This document shows, in pieces, positions 2,091-48,020 of a stretch of 64,000 nucleotides of DNA. This DNA is from Burkholderiaceae bacterium. Lineage in GTDB: Bacteria > Pseudomonadota > Gammaproteobacteria > Burkholderiales > Burkholderiaceae_A. The notes under the pieces are model-generated. The model was given only the letters and a program-made list of their open reading frames with translations. It was not told the origin of the DNA and searched no databases. A program made the position numbers and the translations under genes. Every line of letters starts with the position of its first letter. The first letter of the stretch is position 1. Location of the stretch: contig VERI01000007.1 of the NCBI GenBank assembly GCA_018882785.1, positions 1-64,000 of the forward strand, in the 5' to 3' direction.

Positions 2091-2516
2091 CTAGCGGAGA
2101 TTCTGCCAGTATTTCGCCGCCGCGGTGATCTGATCCTCTAGGTAAGCCGCATAAAAGTCTCTCGATGAGTAGCCCTTCAGGGGTGGCAGCAGCGGCTTTG
2201 CTGTCTGGTCGAGCATGGCAATCGTGGGGGTGAGGTTCAGCCCCAGTGACTCACCCCACTGCCTTGCGGATCGACGGCGGTTGTCCGGAAGGGTAAATTC
2301 TGTTGTGTCATCTAGATTGAGTTCAATGATCCATAACTTGATCGGATGGTCGGTGCGTTGACGTGGTTCGATCTGTTCCTGTTGTAATGCGACGCACCAG
2401 GGGCAGCGGGGGGATGTCAGGAATGCGGCTACCGCGACAGACTGCCCTCTGGCGGCACGCAGAGTGGGGGTAAGCCTTGCGGCAGGAATCAATTGGGTGG
2501 ATTTTGTTATTGCCAT
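2091..2516 (-). CDS. Thioredoxin-fold protein with CPWC motif
   Basis: A 141-residue protein with a thioredoxin-like CxxC motif (CPWC, residues 38-41) after a short beta-strand (VAVAAFLTSPR), and a possible cis-proline segment LTPTIAML near residue 100. This suggests a thiol-disulfide or SoxW-like thioredoxin fold. There is no clear signal peptide, so the compartment is uncertain. I chose the ATG at 2516 (MAITKS) rather than an upstream start at 2534 because the upstream residues are atypical and would crowd the divergent DUF302 gene. A role in reducing sulfur intermediates is possible given the nearby sox cluster but is only inferred. Confidence 0.6.
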   Translation of the reverse strand: MAITKSTQLIPAARLTPTLRAARGQSVAVAAFLTSPRCPWCVALQQEQIEPRQRTDHPIKLWIIELNLDDTTEFTLPDNRRRSARQWGESLGLNLTPTIAMLDQTAKPLLPPLKGYSSRDFYAAYLEDQITAAAKYWQNLR

Positions 2517-2553
2517 GGGCTTACTATTGCACAAAGAACCCTAAGGAGCCCCC

Positions 2554-2940
2554 ATGCAGATCAACTTTAAACGTGAAATCGTAGGTGATCTCGATACGAC
2601 GATCGATCGGGTGTCGAAGGCGCTGTCCGCAGAGGGCTTTGGCATTCTCACGCGGATTGATATGCACAGCAAAATCAAAGAAAAAATTGGCAAGGAGATC
2701 ATCCCCACGGTGATTCTGGGAGCCTGTAACCCCACACTTGCACACGAGGCGTACTGTGCAAATCCAGACGTCACGAGTCTACTGCCCTGTAATGCAGTAC
2801 TGCGGGAGGTTCGGCCTGGCACGATCTCGGTAGAACTGGCGGCGCCCACCGCCCTGATGAAGATTCTCGGCGATGAGGCGTTGGTCGATCTCGCAGGGGA
2901 GGCCGATGCCCGCCTCAGACGGGCGCTTGCGACCGTCTAG
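2554..2940 (+). CDS. DUF302 domain protein (cytoplasmic)
   Basis: A 128-residue single-domain DUF302 protein. The block ILGACNPTLAHEAY followed by LLPCNAVLRE is the family signature, with the two cysteines in their usual places. There is no signal peptide. A good ribosome binding site (AAGGAG) lies 5-6 bases before the ATG. DUF302 proteins are common in bacteria handling sulfur compounds or heavy metals, but their biochemical role is not established. A second DUF302 domain is found in the lipoprotein at 4334-4906, and the two flank the FadL-type gene. It is divergent from the thioredoxin-like gene, separated by about 37 bp. Confidence 0.8.
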   Translation: MQINFKREIVGDLDTTIDRVSKALSAEGFGILTRIDMHSKIKEKIGKEIIPTVILGACNPTLAHEAYCANPDVTSLLPCNAVLREVRPGTISVELAAPTALMKILGDEALVDLAGEADARLRRALATV

Positions 2941-2951
2941 GATGCAATGAC

Positions 2952-2977
2952 GACAGCTCGATGGCGATCGGGCTGTC
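2952..2977. terminator. Hairpin between convergent genes
   Basis: An 11-bp stem (positions 2952-2962 with 2967-2977, one G-U pair) closed by a GGCG loop lies between the converging DUF302 and FadL-type genes. No clear T run follows on either side, so it is terminator-like rather than a textbook intrinsic terminator. It could act in both directions. Confidence 0.5.
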
Positions 2978-2990
2978 TGTTGGCGGCGCT

Positions 2991-4307
2991 TTAACGAAAC
3001 TTCTTGCTGTATTGCACGCCGATTGAGTTTTGGTACATGCGAATCCTCTCGGTGCCACCCCAAGAGGTCGCTGGCGCTCCGAAGCTTTGGAATATCGGCC
3101 CCAACGCGGAGATTCCTGAGACAGATTGTTCGCGAGCATGCATGTAGAAAAAGCTAACTTCCTGCATCTTGTCGATGGCCATGGTTCCACCCAAAGTGAA
3201 GTGTTCACGCATGACACCCGGAGCCAGAATGTTGAACGTTACATCACGTGATTGAATTGGATTTTCGCCTCGGTTGTAGCCGGCACGGACGGTCCATGTA
3301 GGCGTCGCCTCCCACTGTACGCCAATTTTCCAGACGCCGATATCTTTCCAACCGAAGCCTGGGCCATTGGAAGCACCTAAGGGCGCCATATTTGTACTCG
3401 GATTGTGAACGGAAGGTACATCGCTGTACATAATTCTTTGGTAATCCAACGCAATGACGGTAAACGGATTCGCTTGAAATGCAAGGCCTACCGTATAGTT
3501 GCCTGGGATATCGAAGTCACCGTTACCTGAGAACAGACCTTTGTATTTATCGAATGACTTCATATCGATTTTCGGAGAGTATGCAGCCCCCAAAGAAACT
3601 TGATCATTGAGTTTCCCTTGGTATCCGACGCGGACTCCAAAACCGGTGCTGTCGTCTTTTCCGTTATTGGTCACGTTTGCGGGTGATCCGCTCATCATGG
3701 CGAATGGCTGAATCCCATATGCCTTGAACTGCTGGTAAACGAGAAGCGGGGAAATGCCAAGTGAATGGTTCGGAGAAACTTTATAGGCGATTGTTGGCGC
3801 AATGATTAGCTGCGACATATCGACGCCAAGCTTACCCTGGCCGCAGAGGGTATTGCCGGAGTACAGCGCCCCGGTGCTAAGGTTCTGACATGTGAACTGC
3901 CCCCCTGGGTAAGAGGTGTTCATTCCGCCATTGCCGTATACGGTTAGGTTGACGCTCAGGTCTTTTGAGATAGTCCTGTTATACCCAAACTCGGGAACAA
4001 GAAAGTAATCCCGATCGCTTTCTACTTTACCGTCAAGTCCGAGGTTACTGCCAGAGCGGGTCATGCTGCGTTTCGGGCTAAATAATTCCGCACCGATGTC
4101 CCAGCGGTTTCCAGCAAATGCAGCAGCGGCGGGATTATTCGCGCCAGCAAAGGCATCCTGTGCCATGGCGACGGATGCGCCTCCCATTCCCTTGGCCTTG
4201 ATCCCATAGCCATGGGCGAAATAGCCATTCGTTGCCTGCGCAGCAGAGAAGCAGCTGGCGAGGGCAACGGCCACGAGGGCCTTCTGAGGAACCTGTTTGA
4301 TGTTCAT
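2991..4307 (-). CDS. OmpP1/FadL/TodX family outer-membrane transport protein
   Basis: A 438-residue outer-membrane protein with a Sec signal peptide ending around AAQA-TNGYFAHG. The mature N terminus (TNGYFAHGYG followed by KGMGGASVA) is the FadL-family plug or hatch region, and the protein ends in aromatic-rich beta strands with the terminal residues QYSKKFR. FadL proteins form 14-stranded barrels that let hydrophobic molecules diffuse laterally. It sits directly downstream of a DUF302 lipoprotein on the same strand (26 bp gap, RBS AGGAGAC), and that operon diverges from the sox regulators. The context makes sulfur-compound or hydrophobic substrate uptake conceivable, but no substrate can be read from the sequence. 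Confidence 0.85.
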   Translation of the reverse strand: MNIKQVPQKALVAVALASCFSAAQATNGYFAHGYGIKAKGMGGASVAMAQDAFAGANNPAAAAFAGNRWDIGAELFSPKRSMTRSGSNLGLDGKVESDRDYFLVPEFGYNRTISKDLSVNLTVYGNGGMNTSYPGGQFTCQNLSTGALYSGNTLCGQGKLGVDMSQLIIAPTIAYKVSPNHSLGISPLLVYQQFKAYGIQPFAMMSGSPANVTNNGKDDSTGFGVRVGYQGKLNDQVSLGAAYSPKIDMKSFDKYKGLFSGNGDFDIPGNYTVGLAFQANPFTVIALDYQRIMYSDVPSVHNPSTNMAPLGASNGPGFGWKDIGVWKIGVQWEATPTWTVRAGYNRGENPIQSRDVTFNILAPGVMREHFTLGGTMAIDKMQEVSFFYMHAREQSVSGISALGPIFQSFGAPATSWGGTERIRMYQNSIGVQYSKKFR

Positions 4308-4333
4308 TTTCGTCTCCTGTTGTTGTAGTTATT

Positions 4334-4906
4334 TTAAAACTCGCCCTTAGAGGCGCGTTCCATCATTTCATACATGGTTTCACGCACGCTCCAGGCTTCC
4401 TCTTTAAGAGGTGAGGGCAGCTTTCGACCCATCTTGACCATCATGTCCATGTTAAGGGTATAGAGCCAAAGTCCATCATCTTTTTCAAGAAGAGTGACGC
4501 GGCAGGGCATATAGGCCGACATGGCAGGGCTGAAGTCCGCCATCCGACGCGCGATCTGTGGGCTACAAAACGAATAGATCGTCAGGATTTTTTCCTTCTT
4601 GCCGGATCTCGCTTCAAGCTCCTTGGAGAGTGGCAAAGTGCCGACATCGCGCATGTTTCGCTCAGTTGCGACAATCTTTAAAATCTGCTCGACATCTTCG
4701 GCCTTCAGCCCCGGCTTTACTTTTCGTTCCCAAGTAGTGGCTACAGCGATGTCGCCTTCGCCCTCTATCCACTTGTCCCATAGTCGCATTGCTTCGGCTC
4801 CAGCACCGTTTTCCAGTTTTCCAAGCGTGCTGATCGTGCCGCATCCGGTCAGTAAAACTGTACTCGCCAGCACGATGGTTGCAAGTCCATGCGGAAAAAG
4901 CCTCAT
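4334..4906 (-). CDS. DUF302 domain lipoprotein
   Basis: A 190-residue protein with a type II signal peptide: the lipobox LLTGC places the lipidated Cys at residue 22. The mature part ends in a DUF302-type block (IYSFCSPQIARRM, then AYMPCRVTLLEKDDGLWLYTLN). It is the first gene of a minus-strand pair with the FadL-type gene, and its promoter region is shared with the divergent CsoR-superfamily regulator. Two short dyads (4947-4960 and 4975-4988) lie in that region and could control it. Function unknown. The family assignment is firm, while the cellular role is not. Confidence 0.75.
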   Translation of the reverse strand: MRLFPHGLATIVLASTVLLTGCGTISTLGKLENGAGAEAMRLWDKWIEGEGDIAVATTWERKVKPGLKAEDVEQILKIVATERNMRDVGTLPLSKELEARSGKKEKILTIYSFCSPQIARRMADFSPAMSAYMPCRVTLLEKDDGLWLYTLNMDMMVKMGRKLPSPLKEEAWSVRETMYEMMERASKGEF

Positions 4907-4946
4907 ATTGTGTCTCCCTGTTGTTTTGTCAGCGATTGGGGCTAAA

Positions 4947-4960
4947 TACCCTGGGGGGTA
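4947..4960. promoter_or_regulatory. TACCC-N4-GGGTA dyad, CsoR-family operator candidate
   Basis: A perfect 5-bp inverted repeat TACCC/GGGTA with a four-base G-rich spacer lies in the divergent region between the DUF302 lipoprotein and the CsoR-superfamily regulator. Operators of CsoR/CstR-type repressors typically have TACCC-type half-sites around a G-rich core. The position is about 40 bp before the lipoprotein start. Confidence 0.5.
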
Positions 4961-4974
4961 GGGTGTTTCAGCGG

Positions 4975-4988
4975 TTGACGAAAGTCAA
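4975..4988. promoter_or_regulatory. TTGAC-N4-GTCAA dyad over back-to-back -35-like hexamers
   Basis: A perfect dyad in which the plus strand reads TTGACG and the minus strand TTGACT, so each strand carries a sigma70 -35-like hexamer. No convincing -10 was found at 17 bp on either strand. It may be a shared promoter element or an operator for the divergent lipoprotein and regulator genes. Confidence 0.35.
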
Positions 4989-5063
4989 GTCGGGATCGTG
5001 GTTGTTACTGACAGGGGCCGGTAGAACAGGCACACTGCGGTAACTGGATCGGGAGGTAGTTTC

Positions 5064-5384
5064 ATGTCGCAACGCAAAAAAATATCCAAGGAGGCGACTC
5101 CGAGCACTCAGCGCTCGCCCCACGCATATCGTTTGGAGTATCAGCGCGATGTGACCAATCGGCTGCGAAGAATCGAAGGGCAGGTGACCGCCTTGCTTTC
5201 GATGATTGAGTCCGGACGTTCATGCGAGGAAGTTGCGCAGCAGATGTCAGCCGTGCGGAGGGCAATGGATAAGGCGTTTTATAAGATGATGACCTGTTCG
5301 GTGATGGAGGCTGCGACGGTACCTGGTGAGGAACGGCTTCGCGAAGTCGAGCGCTCCACCCGAATTCTCGAGCGTTATGCCTAA
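5064..5384 (+). CDS. CsoR/FrmR (DUF156) superfamily repressor, atypical cysteine pattern
   Basis: A 106-residue all-helical regulator. The block RLRRIEGQVTALLSMIE (residues 33-49) is the superfamily signature for DNA binding. Cys54 matches the conserved first ligand Cys. The family usually has His or another ligand 25 residues later and Cys or His 29 residues later; here those positions are Ser and Ala, and a Cys (Cys78) stands 24 residues after Cys54. The canonical copper, nickel or formaldehyde site is therefore not intact, and a thiol- or persulfide-based sensor is a reasonable inference in front of sox genes. RBS GGGAGG precedes the ATG. Divergent from the FadL/lipoprotein pair. Confidence 0.8.
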   Translation: MSQRKKISKEATPSTQRSPHAYRLEYQRDVTNRLRRIEGQVTALLSMIESGRSCEEVAQQMSAVRRAMDKAFYKMMTCSVMEAATVPGEERLREVERSTRILERYA

Positions 5385-5442
5385 AGATTACTAACTGGAC
5401 GTTCATTTTTTCGTCGCTGCGGCTTGCTCGGCGCGCACGGGG

Positions 5443-5471
5443 TTGACTATATGCGCGTATACGCATAAGGT
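5443..5471 (+). promoter_or_regulatory. Promoter-like TTGACT with operator dyad before arsR-sox
   Basis: TTGACT at 5443-5448 resembles a -35 element. Directly after it lies the inverted repeat TATGCG-N6-CGCATA (5450-5467). Seventeen bases after TTGACT is TAAGGT, a poor -10 that also overlaps the ribosome binding site, so the exact promoter is uncertain. An operator between -35 and -10 is the usual place for ArsR-family repression, which would make this the autoregulatory site of the ArsR gene and the sox cluster. Confidence 0.45.
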
Positions 5472-5477
5472 AAAGCA

Positions 5478-5846
5478 ATGTCTGTAACGTCATCAGATCA
5501 AGCCAGCCTGTTTGATCCAGGCCCTGGCCCCGCCTTGGATGCGGCTCAATTGTCGCGGCTGCTGGAACGGGCTTCCGCTTATTTTTCCCTGCTGTCCGAG
5601 CCCTCGCGTTTGAGGATCCTTCGAGTGGTCTGCTACGAGGAGCTGTCCGTTCAGCAGGTGGTTGAGCGGACCGGACTGCCTCAGCCAAACGTGTCGCGAC
5701 ATTTGGCGCTTTTAAATCGTTCGGGGGTACTGTCTCGCCGTCGGGCGGGGACCTCAGTTTTTTATGCTGTTTCAGACCCTACGATTGTGGAGCTATGTCG
5801 CCTTGTGTGTGTCCGGTTGGCGATCGGGTTAACAGAGAAGGGTTAA
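5478..5846 (+). CDS. ArsR-family transcriptional regulator, likely sox repressor
   Basis: A 122-residue winged-helix regulator. The block LLSEPSRLRILRVV followed by LSVQQVVERTGLPQPNVSRH is the ArsR/SmtB helix-turn-helix, and RRRAGTSVFYAVSD is the wing. The classic metal motif ELCVCDL is absent. Cys52 lies just before the recognition helices, and Cys107 and Cys111 lie in the last helix, a layout reminiscent of dithiol sulfur sensors such as BigR/SqrR, although the spacing differs. It is 53 bp upstream of soxC and probably co-transcribed with it. An operator-like dyad sits just before its start. Role as sulfur-responsive repressor of sox is inferred from context. Confidence 0.8.
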   Translation: MSVTSSDQASLFDPGPGPALDAAQLSRLLERASAYFSLLSEPSRLRILRVVCYEELSVQQVVERTGLPQPNVSRHLALLNRSGVLSRRRAGTSVFYAVSDPTIVELCRLVCVRLAIGLTEKG

Positions 5847-5899
5847 CAGATGATCGGGTTGTACTGGACGGTCACATAGAACAAGAAAGGGAGGGTTGG

Positions 5900-7252
5900 A
5901 TGTCAACCGAAGTAAAGAAGTTCGGGCGCTTGCTGAAGGCACCTGAGAATTTTCTGGGTCAGGGCGATGAGAAATCACCTGAGACCATGCGTCGCAAATT
6001 TCTGGCGGCCTCGGTCTCCACGGCGGCTGCGACTTTCGCCGGGCTGGGTCTGCAGGCATCCGCCCGCGCACAGGCCGCAGTGGGTGCGGGCGATCCGAAC
6101 ATCCTGCAGCTTCCCGCGCACTCGACGGGTCTTGGGATGCCGGTTGCTGCCAACCCTTATGGCGCTCCATCACAGTATGAAAAAGGCCTTCAGCGGCGCG
6201 AGAGCCCGGGCTTGACCCGAGTATCTGCAGCATCGGTGGCCTTCACACCGCTACAGGGAACCTTCGGCATCATCACGCCAAGTGGCCTGCACTTTGAGCG
6301 ACACCATCAAGGCTGGTGGGACATTGACCCAAGCAAACATCGCCTGATGGTGATGGGTCTGGTTAAGAATCCAAAGGTCTACACGATGGACGACCTGATG
6401 CGGCTGCCTTCCGTATCCCGAATCCACTTCATTGAGTGTGGCGCTAACACAGCGATGGAATGGGGCAATGTCGCGGTGCCAACCGTACAGTATTCCCACG
6501 GAATGGTCTCATGCAGTGAATTTACGGGGGTTCCGCTCTCTGTGCTACTCGACGACTGTGGCATTGATCGTAAGCAGGCCAAATACATTCTTGGGGAGGG
6601 TGCCGATGGTTCCTCCATGACCCGCACAATTCCTCTCGATCGTGCATTGGATGATGTGATTGTGGCCTATGGCATGAATGGCGAAATGCTGCGGCCAGAA
6701 AACGGCTATCCGCTGAGACTGGTGGTGCCGGGAATTCAAGGCGTGTCCTGGGTGAAGTGGCTGCGTCGAATCGAGGTCGGTGATCAGAAGTGGGCGACCA
6801 AGGACGAGGCGATTCACTATGTGGATCTAATGCCGGATGGCCTGCATCGACAGTACACGGGTATCCAAGAGGCGAAGTCGGTGATCACGACACCCTCTGG
6901 TGGCCAGACGCTGCTCGATAAGGGCTTCTACAACATTAGCGGTCTGGCGTGGTCGGGCCGCGGCAAGATCAAGCGGGTGGATGTATCCGTGGATGGCGGC
7001 CGTAATTGGCGGACGGCGCGGCTGGAGACGCCCGTGCTCTCCAAGGCATTTACGCGCTTTAACATTGATTGGGTCTGGAATGGAGGCCCTGCAATCCTGC
7101 AGTCTCGCGCGCAGGACGATACCGGCTACGTGCAGCCGAAAATCAATCAGCTTCGGGCAGTTCGAGGGACTCGCTCGATTTATCACCAGAATGCCATTCA
7201 GTCATGGAAGGTTGCAGAGAGCGGGGAGGTCAGCAATGTCCAGGTTTATTAA
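5900..7252 (+). CDS. soxC: SoxC, molybdopterin subunit of sulfane dehydrogenase
   Basis: A 450-residue periplasmic molybdoenzyme that, with the diheme SoxD, oxidises the sulfane sulfur bound to SoxY. A twin-arginine signal (MRRKFLAAS, about residues 30-38) follows an N-terminal extension typical of SoxC. The sulfite-oxidase-type Moco domain contains the conserved Cys in HFIECGANT, and the C-terminal dimerisation domain is seen in VDVSVDGGRNW. I chose the ATG at 5900 because AGGGAGGG precedes it; the longer frame opening at 5795 overlaps the regulator gene. The 3' end overlaps soxD by 17 bp. The cofactor genes mobA and moeA lie 8-11 kb downstream. Confidence 0.95.
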   Translation: MSTEVKKFGRLLKAPENFLGQGDEKSPETMRRKFLAASVSTAAATFAGLGLQASARAQAAVGAGDPNILQLPAHSTGLGMPVAANPYGAPSQYEKGLQRRESPGLTRVSAASVAFTPLQGTFGIITPSGLHFERHHQGWWDIDPSKHRLMVMGLVKNPKVYTMDDLMRLPSVSRIHFIECGANTAMEWGNVAVPTVQYSHGMVSCSEFTGVPLSVLLDDCGIDRKQAKYILGEGADGSSMTRTIPLDRALDDVIVAYGMNGEMLRPENGYPLRLVVPGIQGVSWVKWLRRIEVGDQKWATKDEAIHYVDLMPDGLHRQYTGIQEAKSVITTPSGGQTLLDKGFYNISGLAWSGRGKIKRVDVSVDGGRNWRTARLETPVLSKAFTRFNIDWVWNGGPAILQSRAQDDTGYVQPKINQLRAVRGTRSIYHQNAIQSWKVAESGEVSNVQVY

Positions 7253-8342
7253 TTGTGTGCGCTACAGCCTGGCCGTCATTGCGTTAGGTGCTGCGGTGGC
7301 CGCTTTCGCCCAGCCGGCTTCCAGCAAGTTCACAGGCGTTGGCCGCACCGCAACGCCCGCAGAGATTAAGGCCTGGGATATTGATGTCCGGCCCGATTTC
7401 AAAGGGCTTCCACCGGGCTCAGGATCGGTGGCCAAAGGCCAGGATGTCTGGGAGGCAAAGTGCGCGTCGTGTCACGGTATTTTTGGCGAGAGTACCGAGG
7501 TCTTTACGCCGATAGCCGGGGGCACAAGCAAAAAGGATATTGAAACAGGGCGGGTGGCCAATCTCTCGCGGCTGGATTTTCCTCAACGCACAACGTTGAT
7601 GAAAGTGGCGACTGTTTCTACGCTGTGGGACTACATTAATCGTGCGATGCCTTGGAATAATCCCAAGACCTTGTCGGTGGAGGAAGTCTATGCAGTAACC
7701 GCATATATCCTGAGTCTGGGCGAGATCGTGCCGGATAATTTTGTGCTCTCTGATAAAAATATCGCCGATGTACAAAAACGCATGCCCAATCGCAATGGCA
7801 TGACGGAGAAGCATGGCCTATGGGATATCAAGGGCAAGCCGGATGTCATCGGTACTTTATGCATGAAGGATTGCGCAACCGAGCTCAAGATCACTTCCGT
7901 CCTTCCAGAGTCTGCCCGGGATGCCCACGGCAATTTAAGAGAGCAACACCGTCCGATAGGCCCGGCGCGGGCGATTGACACATCGCGGCCTGGTGCGGCA
8001 GCACCCGCTGGCGATTCGGCGGGCAGGCCGATAGCGGTCGCGGCTGCTGCTGGTGCAGCACCCGCGGTCAAGAGTGGTGTATCGAGTGCGAGCGGCCCGG
8101 AGATCTCTAAAAAGTCGAATTGCACGGCCTGTCACGCGCCTGCTGCGAAGATGGTGGGCCCCTCTTGGGCGGATATCGCGAAGAAATATAAAGGGGACGC
8201 GAAGGCCCCCGCTATGCTTGCCCAGAAGGTAAAGGCGGGTGGGGCCGGAAACTGGGGTGCTGTTCCCATGCCACCGCATCCCGACTTAAAGGACAATGAG
8301 CTTGCTGCGGTCGTGCAGTGGGTTCTTGATGGTGCCAAGTGA
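7236..8342 (+). CDS. soxD: SoxD, diheme cytochrome c subunit of sulfane dehydrogenase
   Basis: A 368-residue secreted cytochrome with a Sec signal peptide (cleavage near AAFA-QP). Two CxxCH haem sites are visible: CASCH at 76-80 and CTACH at 296-300. An Ala/Pro-rich linker (about 250-285) joins the large N-terminal domain to a small C-terminal cytochrome c domain with the distal-ligand region around AVPMPPH. This two-domain arrangement is normal for SoxD. It accepts electrons from SoxC and passes them to the respiratory chain. The start is inside soxC with a GGGGAGG ribosome binding site, so the two are translationally coupled. Confidence 0.94.
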   Translation: MSRFINCVRYSLAVIALGAAVAAFAQPASSKFTGVGRTATPAEIKAWDIDVRPDFKGLPPGSGSVAKGQDVWEAKCASCHGIFGESTEVFTPIAGGTSKKDIETGRVANLSRLDFPQRTTLMKVATVSTLWDYINRAMPWNNPKTLSVEEVYAVTAYILSLGEIVPDNFVLSDKNIADVQKRMPNRNGMTEKHGLWDIKGKPDVIGTLCMKDCATELKITSVLPESARDAHGNLREQHRPIGPARAIDTSRPGAAAPAGDSAGRPIAVAAAAGAAPAVKSGVSSASGPEISKKSNCTACHAPAAKMVGPSWADIAKKYKGDAKAPAMLAQKVKAGGAGNWGAVPMPPHPDLKDNELAAVVQWVLDGAK

Positions 8343-8382
8343 CCGCTCGGCATTGGTTTGTGAACAGAGAGGAGAAGTCAAG

Positions 8383-8850
8383 ATGAACGTTTCACGTCGT
8401 ACGGTTGTAAAAGCCAGTGGCGGTGTCGCGCTGTATTCGGCTCTGGCATCGATCGGTTTTTTTGCAGCAAATCCTGCAATGGCCGCCTGGAAAAAAGAGT
8501 GGTTTGATACCAAGAATGTGCCCGATACCCTGAAGGTCATGGGCATTGCAAATGCCGCCAATAGTGGGGATATCGCGATTACATCGCCGGATATCGCAGA
8601 AAACGGTGCGGTGGTACCGGTAGGTATTGCCTCCAAGCTGCCGAAGACCGAGATGATTGCGCTCTTGGTGGAAAAAAATCCAGCCATGATGGCCGGATTT
8701 TATGATTTCACTTCTGATGCGGTTCCGGATATCTCGATGCGCGTGAAGATGGGCCAGAGCTCCGACGTTATCGCAATCGTTAAGGCGGATGGCAAGTTCT
8801 TTATGGCAAAGAAAGAGATTAAGGTCACCCTCGGCGGCTGCGGCGGCTGA
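8383..8850 (+). CDS. soxY: SoxY, sulfur carrier subunit
   Basis: A 155-residue protein with a Tat signal (SRRTVVKASGG) and the defining C-terminal swinging arm GGCGG, whose Cys153 carries the thiosulfate-derived sulfur adduct through the cycle. It forms a heterodimer with SoxZ, encoded directly downstream. The ATG at 8383 is preceded by GAGAGGAG, 10 nt upstream; earlier in-frame codons would extend into soxD. SoxY itself lacks a Sec signal in most species and carries SoxZ through the Tat system, which agrees with the signal seen here. Confidence 0.95.
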   Translation: MNVSRRTVVKASGGVALYSALASIGFFAANPAMAAWKKEWFDTKNVPDTLKVMGIANAANSGDIAITSPDIAENGAVVPVGIASKLPKTEMIALLVEKNPAMMAGFYDFTSDAVPDISMRVKMGQSSDVIAIVKADGKFFMAKKEIKVTLGGCGG

Positions 8851-8898
8851 TCTCAGGGTTGGATAGATAGATAACTTTGAACAGATAAGGAGTTTGAA

Positions 8899-9207
8899 AT
8901 GGCTGATCCAATGCGCATTCGTGCCAAGGCCGTTGATGGAGTAGTTGATGCCCGTGTGCTGATGGCCCACGAGATGGAGTCTGGTGTTCGTAAGGATGCC
9001 GCTGGAAAACTCGTTCCTGCCTGGTTTATCCAGGAGGTCACCTGCCAGGTAAACGGCAAGACCGTGATGAGCGCCCAGTGGGGTCCCGCAGTGTCGAAAA
9101 ACCCTTTCCTGCAGTTCAAGGCAAAGGGCAAGGCGGGAGATAAGATCACCGTGACCTGGGTGGATAACAAAGGCGACAAGCGGACCGACGAAGCCGCTGT
9201 AGGTTAA
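8899..9207 (+). CDS. soxZ: SoxZ, sulfur carrier partner subunit
   Basis: A 102-residue immunoglobulin-like protein matching SoxZ over its whole length (MRIRAKAVDGVVDARVLMAH near the start, PFLQFKAKG and DKITVTWVDNKGD towards the end). It has no signal peptide and is expected to be co-exported with SoxY. RBS AAGGAG lies before the ATG. A hairpin with a short T run follows its stop, which may lower transcription into soxA. Confidence 0.95.
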   Translation: MADPMRIRAKAVDGVVDARVLMAHEMESGVRKDAAGKLVPAWFIQEVTCQVNGKTVMSAQWGPAVSKNPFLQFKAKGKAGDKITVTWVDNKGDKRTDEAAVG

Positions 9208-9220
9208 TTAACCGCGTCAG

Positions 9221-9247
9221 GCCCGCCCACATCGGCGGGTCTTTTGT
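9221..9247 (+). terminator. Intrinsic terminator or attenuator after soxZ
   Basis: A 6-bp G/C stem (9222-9227 with 9234-9239), a six-base loop, then CTTTTGTTG. It lies inside the sox cluster between soxZ and soxA, so partial termination is more likely than a complete stop. Confidence 0.65.
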
Positions 9248-9278
9248 TGTGCACTAAAGAAATGCAAAGGAGACAGAC

Positions 9279-10082
9279 ATGCTGCGTAGGCATTTGCAGA
9301 TTGGGCTTTGCGCCTTGGCGCTGGGGACTGCCTGGGCCGGATCGGCCATGGCCCAGTCAGACGCCGAGAAGGCGATTGACCGTTATCGGGAACTGGTCGC
9401 TGACGGAAACCCTGCTGAGCTATGGGAGGCAAAGGGCGAGGACTTGTGGAAGAAAAAGCGTGGACCGAAGAACGCCTCTTTGGAGCAGTGCGATCTTGGG
9501 CAGGGCCCAGGTGTTGTAAAGGGTGCTTATGTATCGCTGCCGCGGTATTTCGACGATGTGAAAAAAGTCCAAGACCTGGAGACCCGGCTTGTAACATGCA
9601 TGGAGCAGCATCAGGGAATCAAGGCAAAGGCGTCCGTCTATGACCGCGATGACCACAAAGACGTCATTTCTTTGGTGGCTTGGATCGCGTCAGAGTCTCG
9701 CGGCATGCCCGTGAATCTCCCGCAAGGGCATCCCGAAGAGCGTCGGATGTACGAGATGGGCAAGAGCATATTTTTCTATCGCGCCGGTCCTTATGACTTT
9801 GCCTGTGCAACATGTCATGCGGAAGACGGAAAGCGCATTCGACTACAGGGGCTGCCCAACCTGACCAAGAATGATCCAGCCGGAAAGGCGTTTACCTCTT
9901 GGCCTGCCTACCGCGTCTCGAATTCCCAGCTCTGGCCGATGCAAAAGCGTCTCGAGGACTGTTTCCGTCAGCAACGTTTTCCGTATGTCGAATTTGGATC
10001 GGATGTTACGGTCGCCCTGTCGACTTACATGGGCGTGACCGGTAAAGGCGTGAAATCCCTCGCGCCAACGATTAAACGTTAA
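9279..10082 (+). CDS. soxA: SoxA, monoheme subunit of the SoxAX cytochrome
   Basis: A 267-residue secreted cytochrome with a Sec signal peptide (cleavage near AMA-QS). One haem motif is visible, CATCH at 176-180. The N-terminal domain has Cys71 and Cys107, the likely disulfide that replaces the second haem of diheme SoxA proteins. Cys228 in KRLEDCFRQQRFPY is the conserved persulfide-forming axial ligand. With SoxX it couples thiosulfate to the SoxY cysteine. The monoheme form paired with a long SoxX corresponds to the type II SoxAX described from Starkeya novella. RBS AAAGGAG. Confidence 0.94.
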   Translation: MLRRHLQIGLCALALGTAWAGSAMAQSDAEKAIDRYRELVADGNPAELWEAKGEDLWKKKRGPKNASLEQCDLGQGPGVVKGAYVSLPRYFDDVKKVQDLETRLVTCMEQHQGIKAKASVYDRDDHKDVISLVAWIASESRGMPVNLPQGHPEERRMYEMGKSIFFYRAGPYDFACATCHAEDGKRIRLQGLPNLTKNDPAGKAFTSWPAYRVSNSQLWPMQKRLEDCFRQQRFPYVEFGSDVTVALSTYMGVTGKGVKSLAPTIKR

Positions 10083-10099
10083 CGAGCGGAGCCGACAGA

Positions 10100-10726
10100 A
10101 TGAATAAATCACTCTTAGTTTCACTAGGCGCCGTATGCTTCTTGGTGGCTGGATGTGCGACGACCTATAGTGCTGCAGAGATTGAAAAGATGGCCCGTGA
10201 TGCGGTCAGTCGCTCGTTTTCGGAAAGGGGTATTGCCAAGAAAGAGCGCATCAATCAGGACGCAATTAATCTGGCATGTTCTCAGGCTGAGCATGCAGGC
10301 ACACCGCTATCGGGCGATGTGGTGAGAAAGCTAGAGGCCGCCGAGGCAGCCACGATTAAATACCCGGCGGACGGTAAGTTTCTTGGGGATTGGAAGACCG
10401 GTGAACGTGTGGCCCAGAGCGGGGCGGGCAGCACATACAGTGATAAGGCCGGGTCGCCCAATGGCGGAAACTGTTACAACTGTCATCAGATCAGCAAAGA
10501 AGAAATCTCCCACGGAACCCTCGGACCGAGTCTTTATAACTACGGAAAGTTGCGTGGAAATTCTGATGCGGTGGTGAAATACACCTGGGGCAAGATCTAT
10601 AACGCCAAGGCATTTAATGCCTGTACCAATATGCCCCGTTTTGGGCAGCAAGGCATCCTGACCGAGGCCCAGATGAAAGATCTTATGGCACTTTTGTTGG
10701 ATCCAAGCTCGCCTGTAAATAAGTAG
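10100..10726 (+). CDS. soxX: SoxX, cytochrome c subunit of SoxAX, predicted lipoprotein
   Basis: A 208-residue protein with one haem motif, CYNCH at 125-129, and the conserved NMPRFG segment with the methionine ligand near the C terminus. The N terminus reads as a lipoprotein signal with lipobox LVAGC (Cys19), which would tether SoxAX to a membrane. About 90 residues precede the haem domain, including a helical stretch and Cys60. This is longer than the classic short SoxX and fits the type II complex. It lies 17 bp after soxA. A hairpin follows the stop. Confidence 0.92.
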   Translation: MNKSLLVSLGAVCFLVAGCATTYSAAEIEKMARDAVSRSFSERGIAKKERINQDAINLACSQAEHAGTPLSGDVVRKLEAAEAATIKYPADGKFLGDWKTGERVAQSGAGSTYSDKAGSPNGGNCYNCHQISKEEISHGTLGPSLYNYGKLRGNSDAVVKYTWGKIYNAKAFNACTNMPRFGQQGILTEAQMKDLMALLLDPSSPVNK

Positions 10727-10737
10727 CCACATGGCTG

Positions 10738-10761
10738 GGCCCGGCAGACCGATGCCGGGCC
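10738..10761 (+). terminator. Strong hairpin between soxX and soxB
   Basis: A perfect 8-bp G/C stem (GGCCCGGC at 10738-10745 with GCCGGGCC at 10754-10761) with an eight-base loop. Only ATTTCC follows, so it may be an attenuator or an mRNA-stabilising hairpin rather than a full terminator. Confidence 0.5.
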
Positions 10762-10795
10762 ATTTCCTCCCCTATACGCAAGGTCAAGTCTAAAT

Positions 10796-12517
10796 ATGCA
10801 GCTCAATCGCAGAGAGTTTCTCAATGTAATGGCAGCAGGTTCCGCCTGTGGGATGTTCGGTTCTTGGGCAAGTGCAGCTCGGGCTGCAGTCAAAGGAGAA
10901 AAGCTCTATGACCTGCCGAAAGCGGGCAATGTGAGTTTTCTGCATTTCACGGATTGTCATGCCCAACTCATTCCGATTTATTTCCGAGAGCCGAGCGTGA
11001 ATATCGGACTCGGCATCATGAATGGCCGTCCGCCGCACTTTGTTGGAGAGGAGTTTTTAAAATTCCATAAAGTACCTGCGAACACAGCGCTTTCCCATGC
11101 GTATACCTATCTCGACTTTGAAAAAGCTGCCAAAGCGTATGGAAAAGTCGGCGGTTTTGCCCACCTTGCGACCTTGGTAAAGAAAATGCGGGCGGATCGA
11201 CCAAATGCCTTCCTGCTCGATGGCGGTGATACGTGGCAGGGATCGGCGACATCGCTCTGGACCAATGGCCAAGACATGGTCGATGCCTGCAAGCTCTTAG
11301 GCGTCAACATGATGAGCCCCCATTGGGAGTTTACGTTGGGCGCTAAACGTGTCGAAGAGATCGTTCAAAAAGATTTTGCAGGCAAGATTGAGTTCCTTGC
11401 CCAGAATGTTAAGACCACTGATTTCGGGGATCAGGTCTTCAAGCCTTATGTGATTCGCGAACAAAACGGTATCCCTGTTGCCGTAATTGGCCAGGCATTT
11501 CCCTACACCCCGATTGCCAACCCGCGTTATATGGTGCCGGACTGGACGTTTGGCATTCAAGACGACAATATGCAGAAGATGGTCGATGAGGTCCGCTCCA
11601 AAGGGGCAAAGGTGGTGGTGGTCATTTCGCACAACGGCATGGACGTTGATCTGAAAATGGCATCACGGGTGCGCGGGATTGATGCAATCTTCGGTGGTCA
11701 TACCCATGATGGTGTCCCGCAGCCGGTAGTGGTGAGTAATCCCGGTGGAAAAACATTGGTGACCAATGCGGGATCAAACTCGAAGTTTCTTGGCGTGATG
11801 GATTTTGACGTTCGGGACGGCAAGATCGCGTCGTATAAGTACTCCTTGCTACCAGTATTTGCCAATATGTTGCCTGCAGATAAAGAGATGCAGGCATTCA
11901 TCAACAAGATTCGGGCGCCCTATCAGGCGAAGCTTCAGGAGCCGCTGGCAGTGACCGAGGGGCTGCTCTACCGTCGTGGTAACTTTAACGGCACGTTTGA
12001 TCAGCTGATCTGTGATGCTTTGATGGAAGTAAAGGGCGCTGAGATTGCATTTTCTCCAGGCTTTCGTTGGGGTACCAGCGTGCTCTCTGGCCAGACCATC
12101 ACGCGCGAGCATGTGATGGATCAGACTGCAATCACTTATCCATACACCACAGTAACGGACATGACAGGGGAGTTCATCAAGACGGTCCTGGAAGACGTCT
12201 GCGATAACTTGTTTAACCCTGATCCTTACTATCAGCAGGGCGGCGATATGGTCCGCGTGGGCGGGCTGACCTATGCCTGCGAGCCGGGTGGCAAGCAAGG
12301 AAACCGCATCAGCGATATGCGCCTGAAGGGCCAGCCAATTGATCCAAAAAAGACCTATAAGGTTGCGGGGTGGGCACCCGTCGCCGAGGGCGCCAAGGGC
12401 GAGCCGATCTGGGACGTGGTCGAAACCTGGTTGAAATCAAAAAAACGGATTACCCCGCGGGCGTTAAACCTGCCCCGGCTGATCGGTGTTCAGAATAATC
12501 CCGGTATGGCGTCGTAG
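10796..12517 (+). CDS. soxB: SoxB, dimanganese thiosulfohydrolase
   Basis: A 573-residue periplasmic enzyme of the calcineurin-like/5'-nucleotidase fold that hydrolyses the terminal sulfone from SoxY as sulfate. It has a Tat signal (LNRREFLNV, residues 3-11). Metal-site motifs are visible: FTDCHAQL near 51, LDGGDTWQGS near 140, ISHNGMD near 280 and FGGHTHDG near 300, followed by the C-terminal 5'-nucleotidase domain (GTFDQLICDALM). The gene ends the core sox order C-D-Y-Z-A-X-B. The upstream hairpin and 69-bp gap allow separate control of its level. Confidence 0.96.
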   Translation: MQLNRREFLNVMAAGSACGMFGSWASAARAAVKGEKLYDLPKAGNVSFLHFTDCHAQLIPIYFREPSVNIGLGIMNGRPPHFVGEEFLKFHKVPANTALSHAYTYLDFEKAAKAYGKVGGFAHLATLVKKMRADRPNAFLLDGGDTWQGSATSLWTNGQDMVDACKLLGVNMMSPHWEFTLGAKRVEEIVQKDFAGKIEFLAQNVKTTDFGDQVFKPYVIREQNGIPVAVIGQAFPYTPIANPRYMVPDWTFGIQDDNMQKMVDEVRSKGAKVVVVISHNGMDVDLKMASRVRGIDAIFGGHTHDGVPQPVVVSNPGGKTLVTNAGSNSKFLGVMDFDVRDGKIASYKYSLLPVFANMLPADKEMQAFINKIRAPYQAKLQEPLAVTEGLLYRRGNFNGTFDQLICDALMEVKGAEIAFSPGFRWGTSVLSGQTITREHVMDQTAITYPYTTVTDMTGEFIKTVLEDVCDNLFNPDPYYQQGGDMVRVGGLTYACEPGGKQGNRISDMRLKGQPIDPKKTYKVAGWAPVAEGAKGEPIWDVVETWLKSKKRITPRALNLPRLIGVQNNPGMAS

Positions 12518-12559
12518 ATGGTCCATTCTTCGTTTATGGCATGTAGAAGGAGTGTCCGC

Positions 12560-12886
12560 ATGAGGTCGATCCGAATCTTTGCGCTCGGTGCAATTGCAGC
12601 CCTTGCGCTGTCGTCTTTCCAGGCGCAGGCAAACCCGTTTCCGAAAGGTCAGGCTGCCATGGGCAAGAAGTTGCATGATCCACGCTGTGTGTCGTGCCAT
12701 AACAGCATGTTCCCAGACAAAGATGGTACGCAGCTGTATTCCGATATGTTTCGTAAGGCAGATACAGTCGCTAAGCTTCGGGGGATGATCGAGTTTTGTA
12801 ACACCCGCACCAACTCTGGCTGGTTCGAAGAGGAAATCCAGCACGTCGGGCGGTATCTGAACGACACTTACTACAAGTTTAAGTAG
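12560..12886 (+). CDS. Small monoheme cytochrome c, secreted
   Basis: A 108-residue protein with a Sec signal (cleaved near AQA-NP) and one haem motif CVSCH at 43-47. The rest is unlike SoxE-type diheme proteins: a GTQLYS segment, one further Cys (EFCNTR), and a C-terminal WFEEEIQHVGRYLNDTYYKF. It follows soxB by 42 bp with the RBS AGAAGGAG, and I chose the ATG at 12560 over an in-frame one at 12518 for that reason. It probably shuttles electrons from the Sox enzymes to a terminal oxidase, which is inferred from context. Confidence 0.8.
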   Translation: MRSIRIFALGAIAALALSSFQAQANPFPKGQAAMGKKLHDPRCVSCHNSMFPDKDGTQLYSDMFRKADTVAKLRGMIEFCNTRTNSGWFEEEIQHVGRYLNDTYYKFK

Positions 12887-24612: not shown

Positions 24613-24705
24613 GGGAGAAGATCACACTTCAGGCAGCAAAAATCCGTCTGGACTTTGCTGTAGCTCAATTGGTACTTGTCTAACGTTCGTTCTGGAGGGA
24701 CACAA

Positions 24706-27700
24706 ATGAACGCACCGATGTCTCGCCGACAGTTCTTTAAAGTCTGTTCGGCAGGTGTCGCGACTTCATCGGCAGTTGGTCTCGGGTTTGCGCCCGCGAC
24801 TGTGCATGCTGAAGTCCGGGCTTTTAAATTAGCCCGCACCACTGAAACCCGTGGCACTTGCCCATATTGCTCTGTGAGCTGTGGCGTGCTGATGTACTCA
24901 CGTACAGATGAAGCCACGAAGAAAACCAAACTAATCCATATCGAGGGAGATCCTGATCACCCGGTGAACAAGGGATCGCTGTGCCCCAAAGGCGCGGGTC
25001 TTTTGGACATGGTGCATTCTCCCAACCGCCTTCTGCATCCAGAGGTACGGGAGGCTGGTTCAAAAGAGTGGAAAAAGATTTCTTGGGAAGACGCCCTGAA
25101 TCGTGTCGCGCGCCATATGAAGGCGGATCGCGATGCTAATTTTGTCGAGAAGAACGACAAGGGCACTCCTGTTAATCGCTGGAACACGACATCACTGCTT
25201 GTATCAAGCGCATCCTCAAACGAGTCCGGTTACGCGTTGGTAAAAATGGCGCGCGGCCTGGGCATGGTTGCGCTCGATACACAAGCTCGTATCTGACACG
25301 CCCCCACGGTATCCAGTCTGGGTCCGACGTTTGGGCGTGGCGCCATGACAAATGGCTGGCCAGATATTCAGCATGCTGATCTGATTCTTGTGATGGGCGG
25401 CAACGCCGCCGAGGCCCACCCCTGTGGCTTTAAGTGGGTGACCGAGGCGATGGAGCACCGCAAGGCGAAGTTTGTGGTCGTCGATCCGCGCTTTACCCGC
25501 TCTGCGGCGGTTGCGGATTACTACGCGCCGATTCGGGTTGGAACAGACATCGCCTTCTTGGCTGGTGTGATCAATTACCTGCTCGCCAAGAACAAGATTC
25601 ACGAGGAGTATGTCAAGCACTACACCAATGCTCCGTTCTTGATTAACGGCGACTACAACTTTAAAGACGGTCTATTTGCCGGCTACGACGAAGAGAAGCG
25701 TTCCTACGATAAAAAGACGTGGACCTATCAGATGGGTGACGATGGCTTTGCCAAAGTCGATATGACCATGAAGGATCCCCGTTGTGTGTATCAGCTGATG
25801 AAGTCCCACTTCAGCCGCTACACACCCGAAAAAGTCTCTTCGATCTGTGGTACGCCGAAAGACCAGTTCTTGAAGGTCTGCGAGTACATTGCCGAGACCT
25901 CGCGTCCCGACAAGGTCATGACCATTCTGTACGCCCTTGGCTGGACGCAGCATTCCCATGGTTCGCAGAACATCCGCACTATGGCGATGATCCAGATGCT
26001 CCTGGGCAACGTGGGCCGGCCGGGTGGCGGCGTGAATGCGCTGCGTGGCCATGCCAACGTGCAGGGCATTACCGATATGTGTGCCTATTCAGAAGTGCTT
26101 TCGGGCTACATGCTCTCGCCCACGGAGGCTGATGAGACCCGTGAGAACTATCTGAAGGTGCGCACGCCCAAGGCGACGCGCCCGAACTCGATGAACTTCC
26201 CGCAGAACTTCCCGAAGTGGAATACCAGCCTGCTGAAGGCCTACTACGGGGATAACGCAACGAAGGACAATGACTTCGGCTACCACTATCTGCCCAAGCG
26301 TGACGGCGCCTATGATGTGCTGGCGAACTTTGAGCGCATGGTTCAGGGCAAGATGAATGGCCTGATCTGCCAAGGCTTTAATCCTTTGGCAGCGCTTCCG
26401 AACAAGGCCAAGCTACACAAGGCGTTGTCTAACCTGAAGTACATGGTGGTAATTGACCCGTTGAAGACCGAGTCAGCCGAGTTCTGGAAAAACTTTGGTG
26501 AGCTCAACAATGCAAAGCCAGAGGACATCAAGACGGAGGTGATCCGTCTGCCGTCCACCTGCTTTGCAGAGGATCCGGGCACGTTTACGAGTTCCGGTCG
26601 AGTGGTGCACTGGCACTACGCTGCGGCAGATGCGCCAGGCGAGGCTAAGACTGACCGAGAAATCATCGGTTCGCTCTTCACCAAGCTGCGCGATATGTAT
26701 CGCAAGGAAGGTGGTAAGGGCCGTGATCCATTGATGGCCATCAAGTGGAACTACACCAATCCATCAAACCCGGCTCCCGAAGAACTTTTGAAAGAGATTT
26801 CGGGCCGTGCATTAGTGGATATCAAGGATCCAAAAACGGGCGATGTGCTCTTTAAGGCGGGCGATCAACTGCCCGGCTTTGGTGTACTGCGCGATGATGG
26901 CTCCACCGAGTGCGGCAACTGGATCTATGGCGGCTGCTGGTCCCAGGCAGGTAATCTCACCGCGCGTCGGAATAACGCCGACGACGGTGGCATGGGGATT
27001 CACCAGCAGTGGGGCTACTCATGGCCCGCCAATCGCCGGGTGCTCTATAACCGTGCAGGTGCGGATCCCTCGGGCAAGGCCTGGGATGCTAAGCGTCCGA
27101 CGATTCAGTGGGATGGCAGCAAGTGGGCGGGCGTGGATATTCCCGACATTGCACCGGCGCTACCGCCGGCGACCGGCCCCTTCATCATGAATCCGGAAGG
27201 GGTTGGCCGTCTGTTTGCGCCTGGCATGGCCGAAGGGCCGTTCCCCGAGCATTACGAGCCTTTTGAGACGCCTGTTGGCAAGAACCTGATGCATCCGAAT
27301 AACCCCAAGGTCACCAGCAATCCATGTGCCCGGGTGTACAAGGCGGACGCGTCATCGTTCGGGAAAGCGGACGAGTTTCCATACGCAGCGACGACCTATC
27401 GTCTGACCGAGCACTTCCACTTCTGGACCAAGAACGTCGAGTCCAACGCCATTGTTCAGCCACAGCCTTTCGTTGAGATTGGCGAGGCACTCGCGAAAGA
27501 AAAAGGCATCAAAAACGGCGACATGGTCAGGGTCTGGAGTAACCGCGGGCAGGTCAAGGCGGTCGCCTCGGTCACCAAGCGGATTCGTCCGCTCACGGTC
27601 GATGGGAAGACGGTTCACCAGGTAGGCATTCCGATTCACTTCGGATTTGTTGGTGTGACGAAGAACGGCTTCCTGGCCAATGAACTCACGCCGTATGTGG

Positions 27701-27762
27701 GGGATGCCAATTCGCAGACGCCGGAGTTTAAGGCGTTTCTTGTCAACGTCGCTAAGGTCTAA
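24706..27762 (+). CDS. fdnG: Selenocysteine-containing formate dehydrogenase-N alpha subunit (FdnG/FdoG)
   Basis: A 1018-residue periplasmic catalytic subunit with an in-frame UGA at 25294-25296 that is read as selenocysteine (residue 197), giving ARI[18 protein letters not shown]. E. coli FdnG has the same context around its Sec196 and a similar length (1015). It has a Tat signal (SRRQFFK, 6-12), a 4Fe-4S site (Cys52, 55, 59, 93) and MGD-binding blocks ([13 protein letters not shown] and the C-terminal GIPIHFGF region). The enzyme oxidises formate and passes electrons to FdnH and FdnI. The RBS GGAGGG precedes the ATG. A SECIS hairpin directly follows the UGA, and selA, selB and selC are in the same run. 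Confidence 0.95.
25294..25339 (+). promoter_or_regulatory. UGA selenocysteine codon and SECIS hairpin in fdnG
   Basis: Immediately after the UGA, CACGCCC (25297-25303) pairs with GGGCGTG (25333-25339). Inside, positions 25307-25309 pair with 25324-25326, T25310 is bulged, 25311-25314 pair with 25320-25323 (one G-U), and the loop is AGUCU. A bulged U below a short upper stem whose loop contains GU is the SelB-recognised shape of bacterial SECIS elements, and the upper stem begins about 10 nt after the UGA, as in E. coli. Confidence 0.85.
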
Positions 27763-29340: not shown

Positions 29341-29377
29341 TGAAGATGGATTGCTGACGCGACAGGAAGACGACAAC

Positions 29378-30322: not shown

Positions 30323-30324
30323 TC

Positions 30325-31800: not shown

Positions 31801-31817
31801 CTTCGGTCGAGTATCTG

Positions 31818-33773: not shown

Positions 33774-33869
33774 GGAAGGGTGTCGTGGCCCGGTGGTCCG
33801 GTCAGACTTCAAATCTGATAGGGGTTGCCAGCAATCCCTGGTGGGTTCGACTCCCATACCCTTCCGCCA
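33774..33869 (+). tRNA. selC: tRNA-Sec (UCA anticodon)
   Basis: A 96-base gene with an 8-bp acceptor stem (33774-33781 with 33858-33865), discriminator G and encoded CCA. The anticodon loop CUUCAAA gives the UCA anticodon at 33809-33811, which reads UGA. The extra arm is long (GGGGTTGCC...), and the acceptor and T arms have the lengths typical of selenocysteine tRNA. It lies directly after selB with no terminator seen between them. Confidence 0.95.
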
Positions 33870-48015: not shown

Positions 48016-48020
48016 CGATG

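Follow-up and report, generated by a model that had tools for sequence, protein, structure and literature searches.

The route by which sulfur oxidisers bring water-insoluble S8 through their outer membrane is an open question. In the accessible portion of one report, membrane proteins for S0 transport are described as lacking experimental confirmation in acidophilic or neutrophilic sulfur oxidisers, and OprD-like porins of Sulfurovum are proposed as an outer-membrane route for zero-valent sulfur (PMC10045233). Here we describe a FadL-family barrel encoded beside a soxCDYZAXB cluster in a 64,000-nucleotide stretch of DNA (hereafter the window) from a Burkholderiaceae bacterium (assembly GCA_018882785.1, contig VERI01000007.1, handled here as contig C27 of a 2.17-Mb genome that is 98% complete). 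Like the Sulfurovum porins, this barrel is proposed as an entry route for zero-valent sulfur. However, those porins belong to another porin family and were proposed, in that same portion of the report, from expression (PMC10045233), whereas the evidence for the window FadL comes from gene neighbourhoods. Among the papers listed by full-text literature searches, which cover few subscription journals, none puts forward a FadL-type channel as a route for sulfur. New here is a sulfur-linked branch of the known FadL channel family, for which the link to sulfur is strong at the level of the subfamily and the substrate is a proposal.

The best-described relatives are channels for other compounds. TodX, CymD and TbuX, which carry monoaromatic hydrocarbons, have the barrel-plus-hatch fold in common with the window FadL, but are only ~20-24% identical to it, and ring-cleavage genes surround them whereas sulfur neighbourhoods surround the FadL subfamily studied here. 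Similarly, E. coli FadL shares the fold and the NPA motif of the hatch, but is 18% identical, and the ordinary FadL genes of the order are without sulfur neighbours (0/20). The window gene (2991..4307, - strand) matches PF03349 with 87.2 bits (E 1.1e-24) against a curated cut-off of 29.7, and no second PF03349 gene was found in the genome. No NCBIfam model matched the protein over its cut-off. The product has 438 amino acids, with a signal peptide ending in ...AQA by eye and a mature length of 413. In an AlphaFold2 model built from 49 sequences (pLDDT 93.7), helices between residues 11 and 40 lie ahead of the first strand and correspond to the N-terminal hatch of the FadL fold. By way of this model, the protein aligns with E. 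coli FadL (3pf1, a point mutant; Z 39.1, rmsd 2.1, 350 aligned) and with TodX (3bs0; Z 35.9, rmsd 2.5, 344 aligned); the nearest solved proteins by sequence profile are TodX (5.6e-32, family profile), CymD and TbuX. The NPA motif of the hatch (N33-P34-A35, mature numbering) is invariant in 49/49 aligned barrels, and PDB titles list the FadL mutants N33A, P34A and delta NPA. From the predicted fold, we are confident that the protein is a FadL/TodX-family barrel. The two commonest cysteine columns, at mature positions 115 (27/49) and 130 (42/49), lie in one loop region and look like an optional disulfide. Activation of sulfur by a free thiol as an essential feature of the barrel was rejected, since cysteine counts vary among the 49 barrels (none in six, two in 30, three in six, four in six and five in one).

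A profile of 14 barrels was searched against named genomes and returned at least 574 relatives, the best 80 of which (49-60% identity) were analysed. These loci were scored with profiles made from recurrent neighbours, and Pfam and NCBIfam identified representatives as DsrE2 (NF047629, over its cut-off), TusA, rhodanese, Soe/Phs-like molybdenum oxidoreductase, TauE and CMD-Rieske proteins. As strict sulfur markers we counted sox, DsrE2/TusA and sHdr-LbpA genes within 10 kb, leaving out Soe-like, CMD-Rieske, TauE, rhodanese and Usp genes and counting DUF302b (the lipoprotein described below) only where stated. A strict marker is present in 53 of the 80 loci, rising to 58 with DUF302b and to 69 with Soe-like genes as well. 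Within 10 kb of fadL, sox was found in 16/80 loci and DUF302b in 15/80, and ten of the 15 DUF302b loci also have sox within that distance. Directly upstream of fadL, the marker is DUF302b in 14 loci, DsrE2 in 29, CMD-Rieske in 20 and TusA in two, with none in the remaining 15. The label SoeABC was set aside for the recurrent molybdenum oxidoreductase (29/80 loci), the best match of which is PhsA, far under the cut-off; it is kept as Soe-like.

To avoid ranking by similarity, 300 genomes were drawn evenly from the order. All places scoring at least 158 bits (at least 39% identity), the window's own excluded, gave 70 stretches, seven of them shorter than 14 kb; three extra FadL copies are located inside these stretches, and tandem duplicates of the sulfur-linked FadL were seen in L206, L223 and L229. 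A strict marker lies within 10 kb in 50 of the 70 loci, or in 52 with DUF302b, 54 with Soe-like genes and 58 with CysA/CysT, TauD-like genes and encapsulin cargo. The sHdr-LbpA set (LipS1-, LipS2-, LplA- and GcvH-like proteins and HdrB) is among the neighbours in 31/70, with LipS2 no more than 2.5 kb from the middle of fadL in 25; the NCBIfam scores for LipS1 and LipS2 in these loci are under their cut-offs. As controls from the same order, 20 ordinary FadL genes were chosen among the strongest PF03349 matches. None has a strict marker within 10 kb (Fisher p 3e-9 versus 50/70), a comparison in which the control outweighs the p-value because the marker list was compiled once the neighbours were known. 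The seven controls that come from genomes with strong SoxB or DsrE2 matches give 0/7 (p 4e-4). The survey against sox genes that was suggested with the original prediction therefore upholds a sulfur neighbourhood (50/70 and 53/80 versus 0/20), but sox itself is a minority partner (1/70 and 16/80 within 10 kb). Commoner partners are DsrE2/TusA and sHdr-LbpA-LipS genes, a cytoplasmic sulfane-sulfur pathway. Close homologs consistently placed beside fatty-acid or aromatic degradation genes, which had been named as the opposing outcome, were not seen; two relatives in styrene or aromatic clusters have 30-34% identity.

Co-occurrence across the same 300 genomes points in the same direction. The subfamily was scored as present where the best match reached at least about 296 bits, which applies to 64 genomes. 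SoxB or DsrE2 is found in 59 of these versus 95 of the 236 others (odds ratio 17.5), DsrE2 alone in 54/64 versus 28/236, and SoxB alone in 51/64 versus 90/236. Among the five subfamily genomes without either gene, two carry CysA and CysT at the FadL locus (G049, G138), one has TauD-like and cystine-transporter-like genes that score under cut-offs (G139), one has its FadL relative (43%) near a family 2A encapsulin with cysteine desulfurase cargo (G258; L178 6433-12070), and the last has nothing recognised nearby (G082). We consider the sulfur link of the FadL subfamily to be well supported.

For 87 barrels, including four of the controls, a quick maximum-likelihood tree was built and evaluated by SH-aLRT support without bootstrap. 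The window FadL falls inside a 22-row group (SH-aLRT 99) that comprises 11 rows with sox, seven with DUF302b and no sox, three with CMD/Rieske and one with none of these. The sox label requires nine changes on the tree, and at least six of these changes are forced by strongly supported (starred) branches. The barrel either entered sox clusters on more than one occasion or was repeatedly separated from them. A long branch with full support divides the four control FadL proteins from the subfamily.

DUF302, a family to which Pfam assigns no function, has been seen in sox clusters before, namely those of Thermithiobacillus (PMC5037610) and Sulfitobacter (PMC11034169). The accessible portions of both reports mention no FadL partner for these genes, whereas DUF302b of the window has one. 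The original prediction had placed a FadL-type gene and two DUF302 genes beside the sox cluster, and profile matches confirmed all three. For the DUF302 proteins, the PF03625 scores are 61.9 and 44.2 bits (cut-off 23). DUF302b (4334..4906, - strand; E 1.7e-11) is a 190-amino-acid putative lipoprotein with the lipobox LLTGC, recognised by eye and containing Cys22, and with Cys114 and Cys135 invariant in 13/13 aligned sequences. Its relatives in this alignment are 72-83% identical to the window protein over the mature length. A predicted structure (pLDDT 79.3) resembles the solved DUF302 proteins 1q9u (Z 14.9) and 1j3m (Z 14.3), and also 7tj1 (Z 16.2), an entry with an unrelated title. What sets DUF302b apart from the TT1751-family structures is its lipoprotein character, an N-terminal helix and a segment, LNMDMMVKMGRKLPSPLKE, that is strongly conserved. 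It is the first gene of the fadL unit, and only 26 bp separate it from the downstream fadL, a spacing from which the two look like one unit.

The second gene, DUF302a (2554..2940, + strand; E 5.2e-17), encodes 128 amino acids with Cys58, Cys68 and Cys79 and no signal peptide by eye. It matches the solved protein TT1751 (1j3m) at 1.7e-21 and is weakly similar to DUF302b by profile (E 0.0012), and Pfam puts both in DUF302. DUF302a does adjoin the module as predicted, but it converges on fadL, stands outside the divergent promoter, and has relatives near fadL in only two of the 80 closest loci (L041, L062). Diverged DUF302 relatives were also found no more than ~170 bp from soxB matches in three genomes (G048:C8:201652, G175:C53:39781, G298:C13:231324), a placement like that of the sox-cluster DUF302 gene of Thermithiobacillus. 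In an Undibacterium metagenome-assembled genome (L082), DUF302b (1210) is at the ArsR/soxC end and FadL (10001) is behind soxB, so that both occupy one sox region, apart from each other.

The DUF302b-fadL unit had been thought to share a promoter with the sulfur regulator. It is indeed divergent from a regulatory gene, with 157 bp between the two starts, but this gene (5064..5384, + strand) encodes a CsoR/RcnR-family protein (PF02583, 66 bits, cut-off 22.8, E 4.1e-18). The ArsR-family gene comes next (5478..5846, + strand; NF033788 1.4e-21; Cys52, Cys107 and Cys111) and is called SoxR-like by position only. The adjacent soxCDYZAXB cluster follows (5894..12517, + strand); its SoxC matches TIGR04555 at 2e-185, and the remaining sox genes were named from translations and order. 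Metal-sensing CsoR/RcnR proteins have canonical Cys-His-Cys/His metal ligands, and CstR has two reactive cysteines 29 residues apart. In the regulator described here, Cys54 and Cys78 are invariant in 17/17 aligned rows (one of which, L051, is a copy 7.5 kb away from fadL) and no histidine is conserved. The window protein has Cys54, Cys78 and His20 as its only cysteine and histidine residues, and lacks the ligand pattern of the metal sensors; its cysteine spacing of 24 also departs from the 29 residues of the CstR/TTHA1953 type. The accessible portion of a report on TTHA1953 describes this CsoR-like protein as a repressor of Sox genes in Thermus thermophilus (PMC10318464). Both regulators are two-cysteine proteins linked to sulfur metabolism, but TTHA1953 has Cys39/Cys68 where the window protein has Cys54/Cys78. 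Their sites differ as well, the window palindrome being TACCCCnnAGGGTAT with a C/G tract and the TTHA1953 site TACnnTACnnnnGTAnnGTA; such tracts are present in most CsoR-RcnR sites according to the same portion of that report (PMC10318464).

The operator-like palindrome ATACCCTGGGGGGTA lies at 4946..4960 in the DUF302b/CsoR divergent intergenic region. An exact search with ATACCCNNNGGGGTA across the 2.17-Mb genome returned this site only. One mismatch added five further sites, and a reversed control pattern also gave five matches; the weaker sites thus carry no meaning, and the one that was inspected (L171) has unrelated genes around it. The pattern TACCCCNNAGGGTAT is present at no more than two mismatches upstream of DUF302b in 16/17 regions, the exception being L081, and the palindrome also precedes DUF302b in sox loci without an adjoining CsoR gene. 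A consensus promoter and terminator scan of 2400-5900 gave no excess over shuffles.

Comparison with related genomes indicates that these genes form a cassette. The order HAD, DUF3422, thioredoxin-like, ArsR, soxC is found in two genomes of the same genus (G001, G003) and two of the family (G007, G013), and the order from DUF3422 to soxC in two more of the family (G009, G011), with HAD undetected in G009 and the G011 contig beginning inside DUF3422. The soxCDYZAXB order is kept in all six, and the ArsR gene adjoins soxC also in sibling genomes whose sox region has no cassette. In none of the six do DUF302a, FadL, DUF302b or CsoR lie between the thioredoxin-like and ArsR genes. A blastn alignment with G003 (L141) breaks off at window position 2433 (L141 7957) and restarts at 5496 (7818), so that G003 holds ~140 bp where the window has the cassette of DUF302a, fadL, DUF302b and csoR (2433..5496); these bounds are the ends of the alignment, and the exact breakpoints may differ. 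Elsewhere, G007 has CsoR-DUF302b-FadL alone, ~14 kb from the sox genes on the same contig, and G013 has DUF302b-FadL near the end of a contig other than that with sox. A FadL match is present in 0/6 other genomes of the genus, two of which are 78-79% complete. GC content is 0.51-0.54 in the cassette and 0.54-0.59 just outside, and part of the sox cluster is equally low (0.51 at 10.5-12 kb). As a presence/absence unit, the cassette may have been gained in the window or lost in its sisters.

We propose that DUF302b and FadL together form an outer-membrane entry module dedicated to sulfur and controlled by a repressor of its own, a reading to which we assign a probability of roughly 0.5. Its computed basis consists of the fold, the operon-like spacing, the conservation of the operator, the variable presence of the cassette next to sox, and the sulfur genes found around members of the subfamily; from these we infer a substrate, a direction of transport, a role for DUF302b and a signal. 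FadL, a member of a lateral-diffusion family, would pass hydrophobic zero-valent sulfur (S8 or polysulfanes) through the outer membrane. DUF302b, on the periplasmic side, would then take up or open the sulfur, perhaps via its two invariant cysteines, and the sulfur might be handed to SoxYZ in the window genome and onward to a DsrE2/TusA/sHdr route in relatives. The two-cysteine CsoR-family protein may keep the DUF302b-fadL promoter shut until it is modified by sulfane sulfur. The sox cluster would need to take the sulfur here because DsrE2 and LipS2 are not evident, the genome having no strong DsrE2 match and no LipS2 over its cut-off. Uptake of elemental sulfur by the module, as originally predicted, is best described as plausible from sequence.

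Several observations weigh against this proposal. The pathway that most often accompanies the subfamily is not evident among the sequences of the window genome, and six other genomes of the genus have no FadL match, so the cassette FadL is dispensable for sox function. Strict markers are absent within 10 kb of five of the 15 close DUF302b-FadL loci (L045, L050, L089, L090, L097), the DUF302b-FadL loci of G007 and G013 are likewise without a sulfur marker at that distance, and in 12/70 order-wide loci markers of every kind are missing. The markers were picked with the neighbours already in view, and for 13 of the 20 controls the source genome has no strong SoxB or DsrE2 match. More distant relatives adjoin hydrogenase genes on an Ideonella plasmid (42%) and lie in styrene and aromatic clusters (34% and 30%); another, on a Paracoccus plasmid (36%), lies in a region without annotation. 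The genome also has beta-oxidation families (seven acyl-CoA dehydrogenase and six thiolase matches, one of them under its cut-off), and since these occur together with a sole FadL-family gene, uptake of fatty acids is conceivable. In Acidithiobacillus, the rise of FadL at low pH is read as fatty-acid related in the accessible portion of the relevant report (PMC10487802). Finally, the neighbourhoods and the modelled fold would fit organosulfur compounds as well as S8 and do not separate the two as substrates.

This last point leads to the strongest competing explanation, which we nevertheless regard as doubtful, namely import of hydrophobic organosulfur compounds (thiols, disulfides, alkyl or aryl sulfides) instead of S8, with their sulfur then oxidised or assimilated. 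The closest solved relatives, TodX, CymD and TbuX, carry small aromatics, and distant members of the subfamily have as neighbours CysA/CysT or a TauD-like gene, which serve sulfur assimilation. However, the commonest partners, DsrE2/TusA and sHdr-LbpA, act on inorganic sulfane sulfur, and the TauD-like gene apart, no organosulfur-cleaving enzyme appears among the named recurrent neighbour clusters, many clusters being unnamed. Outward transport, in which surplus zero-valent sulfur leaves the periplasm by excretion or to relieve sulfane stress, with a sulfane-sensing repressor in control, appears unlikely. CsoR-type control without metal ligands would suit stress relief as well as uptake, but known FadL-family channels take up their substrates by lateral diffusion, and the CysA/CysT genes and the encapsulin 2A with cysteine desulfurase near distant members suggest acquisition.

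The absence of sulfur neighbours from all 20 controls, compared with their presence in 50/70 subfamily loci, and the long, fully supported branch that parts four controls from the subfamily make it quite improbable that this is an ordinary fatty-acid or hydrocarbon FadL placed beside sox by chance, even though it has the FadL fold and no other PF03349 gene was found in this genome, which has beta-oxidation families. We give the least credence to a metal- or stress-responsive CsoR cassette of DUF302 and an outer-membrane protein that came to lie by sox through chance and has no tie to a sulfur substrate. The regulator does belong to the CsoR/RcnR family and 5/15 close loci have no sulfur markers nearby, but the regulator has no conserved histidine and has a cysteine at a non-canonical position, the cassette includes no metal transporter, and the tree and order-wide counts place it in sulfur loci repeatedly.

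If the sulfur-entry proposal is extended beyond the window, a widespread FadL/TodX branch might act as the gate by which elemental sulfur passes the outer membrane of sulfur-oxidising Proteobacteria. We offer this extension tentatively, at somewhat short of even odds. Such a gate would have DUF302b or a ~300-amino-acid secreted protein as its periplasmic partner and, in some organisms, a new two-cysteine CsoR-type sulfane sensor. As an interchangeable part, it would serve sox, DsrE2/TusA and sHdr-LbpA pathways alike and, in distant members, sulfur assimilation or storage. For the question of how S8 passes the outer membrane, the subfamily provides a short list of candidate genes, which are also present in named isolates, among them Tepidimonas ignava and Thiobacillus thioparus DSM 505. 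Along with the candidate channel come DUF302, a domain of unknown function, and a CsoR-type protein that departs from the canonical form.

The ~300-amino-acid secreted proteins form two related families (Sec300 clusters; for example L215 10652-11572 and L200 4923-5819) and are encoded close behind fadL near 30/70 order-wide loci. The members that were scanned gave no significant Pfam and no NCBIfam match. Although they appeared DUF302-like by eye, this assignment was dropped given the Pfam result and a profile comparison, based on thin alignments, that revealed no similarity. The Sec300 proteins are possible periplasmic partners of the channel.

Other features of the window were noted in passing. 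Following soxB, a small secreted cytochrome-like protein (12518-12886, + strand) carries CVSCH by eye; among the 80 closest loci, 13 have a relative of it near fadL (cytX profile), and the member from L074 has no Pfam match. A probable selenocysteine system spans 24676-27762 and 29351-33734 (both + strand), followed by tRNA-Sec at 33774-33869 (+ strand). Here an in-frame TGA splits a formate-dehydrogenase-like gene (...LDTQARI*HAPTV...), and it probably encodes selenocysteine, since FdhE-, SelA- and SelB-like open reading frames (by eye) and tRNA-Sec come after it. Finally, three adjoining squalene/hopanoid-synthesis-like genes, two phytoene/squalene-synthase-like and one amine-oxidase-like, were recognised by eye at 46651-49783 (- strand).

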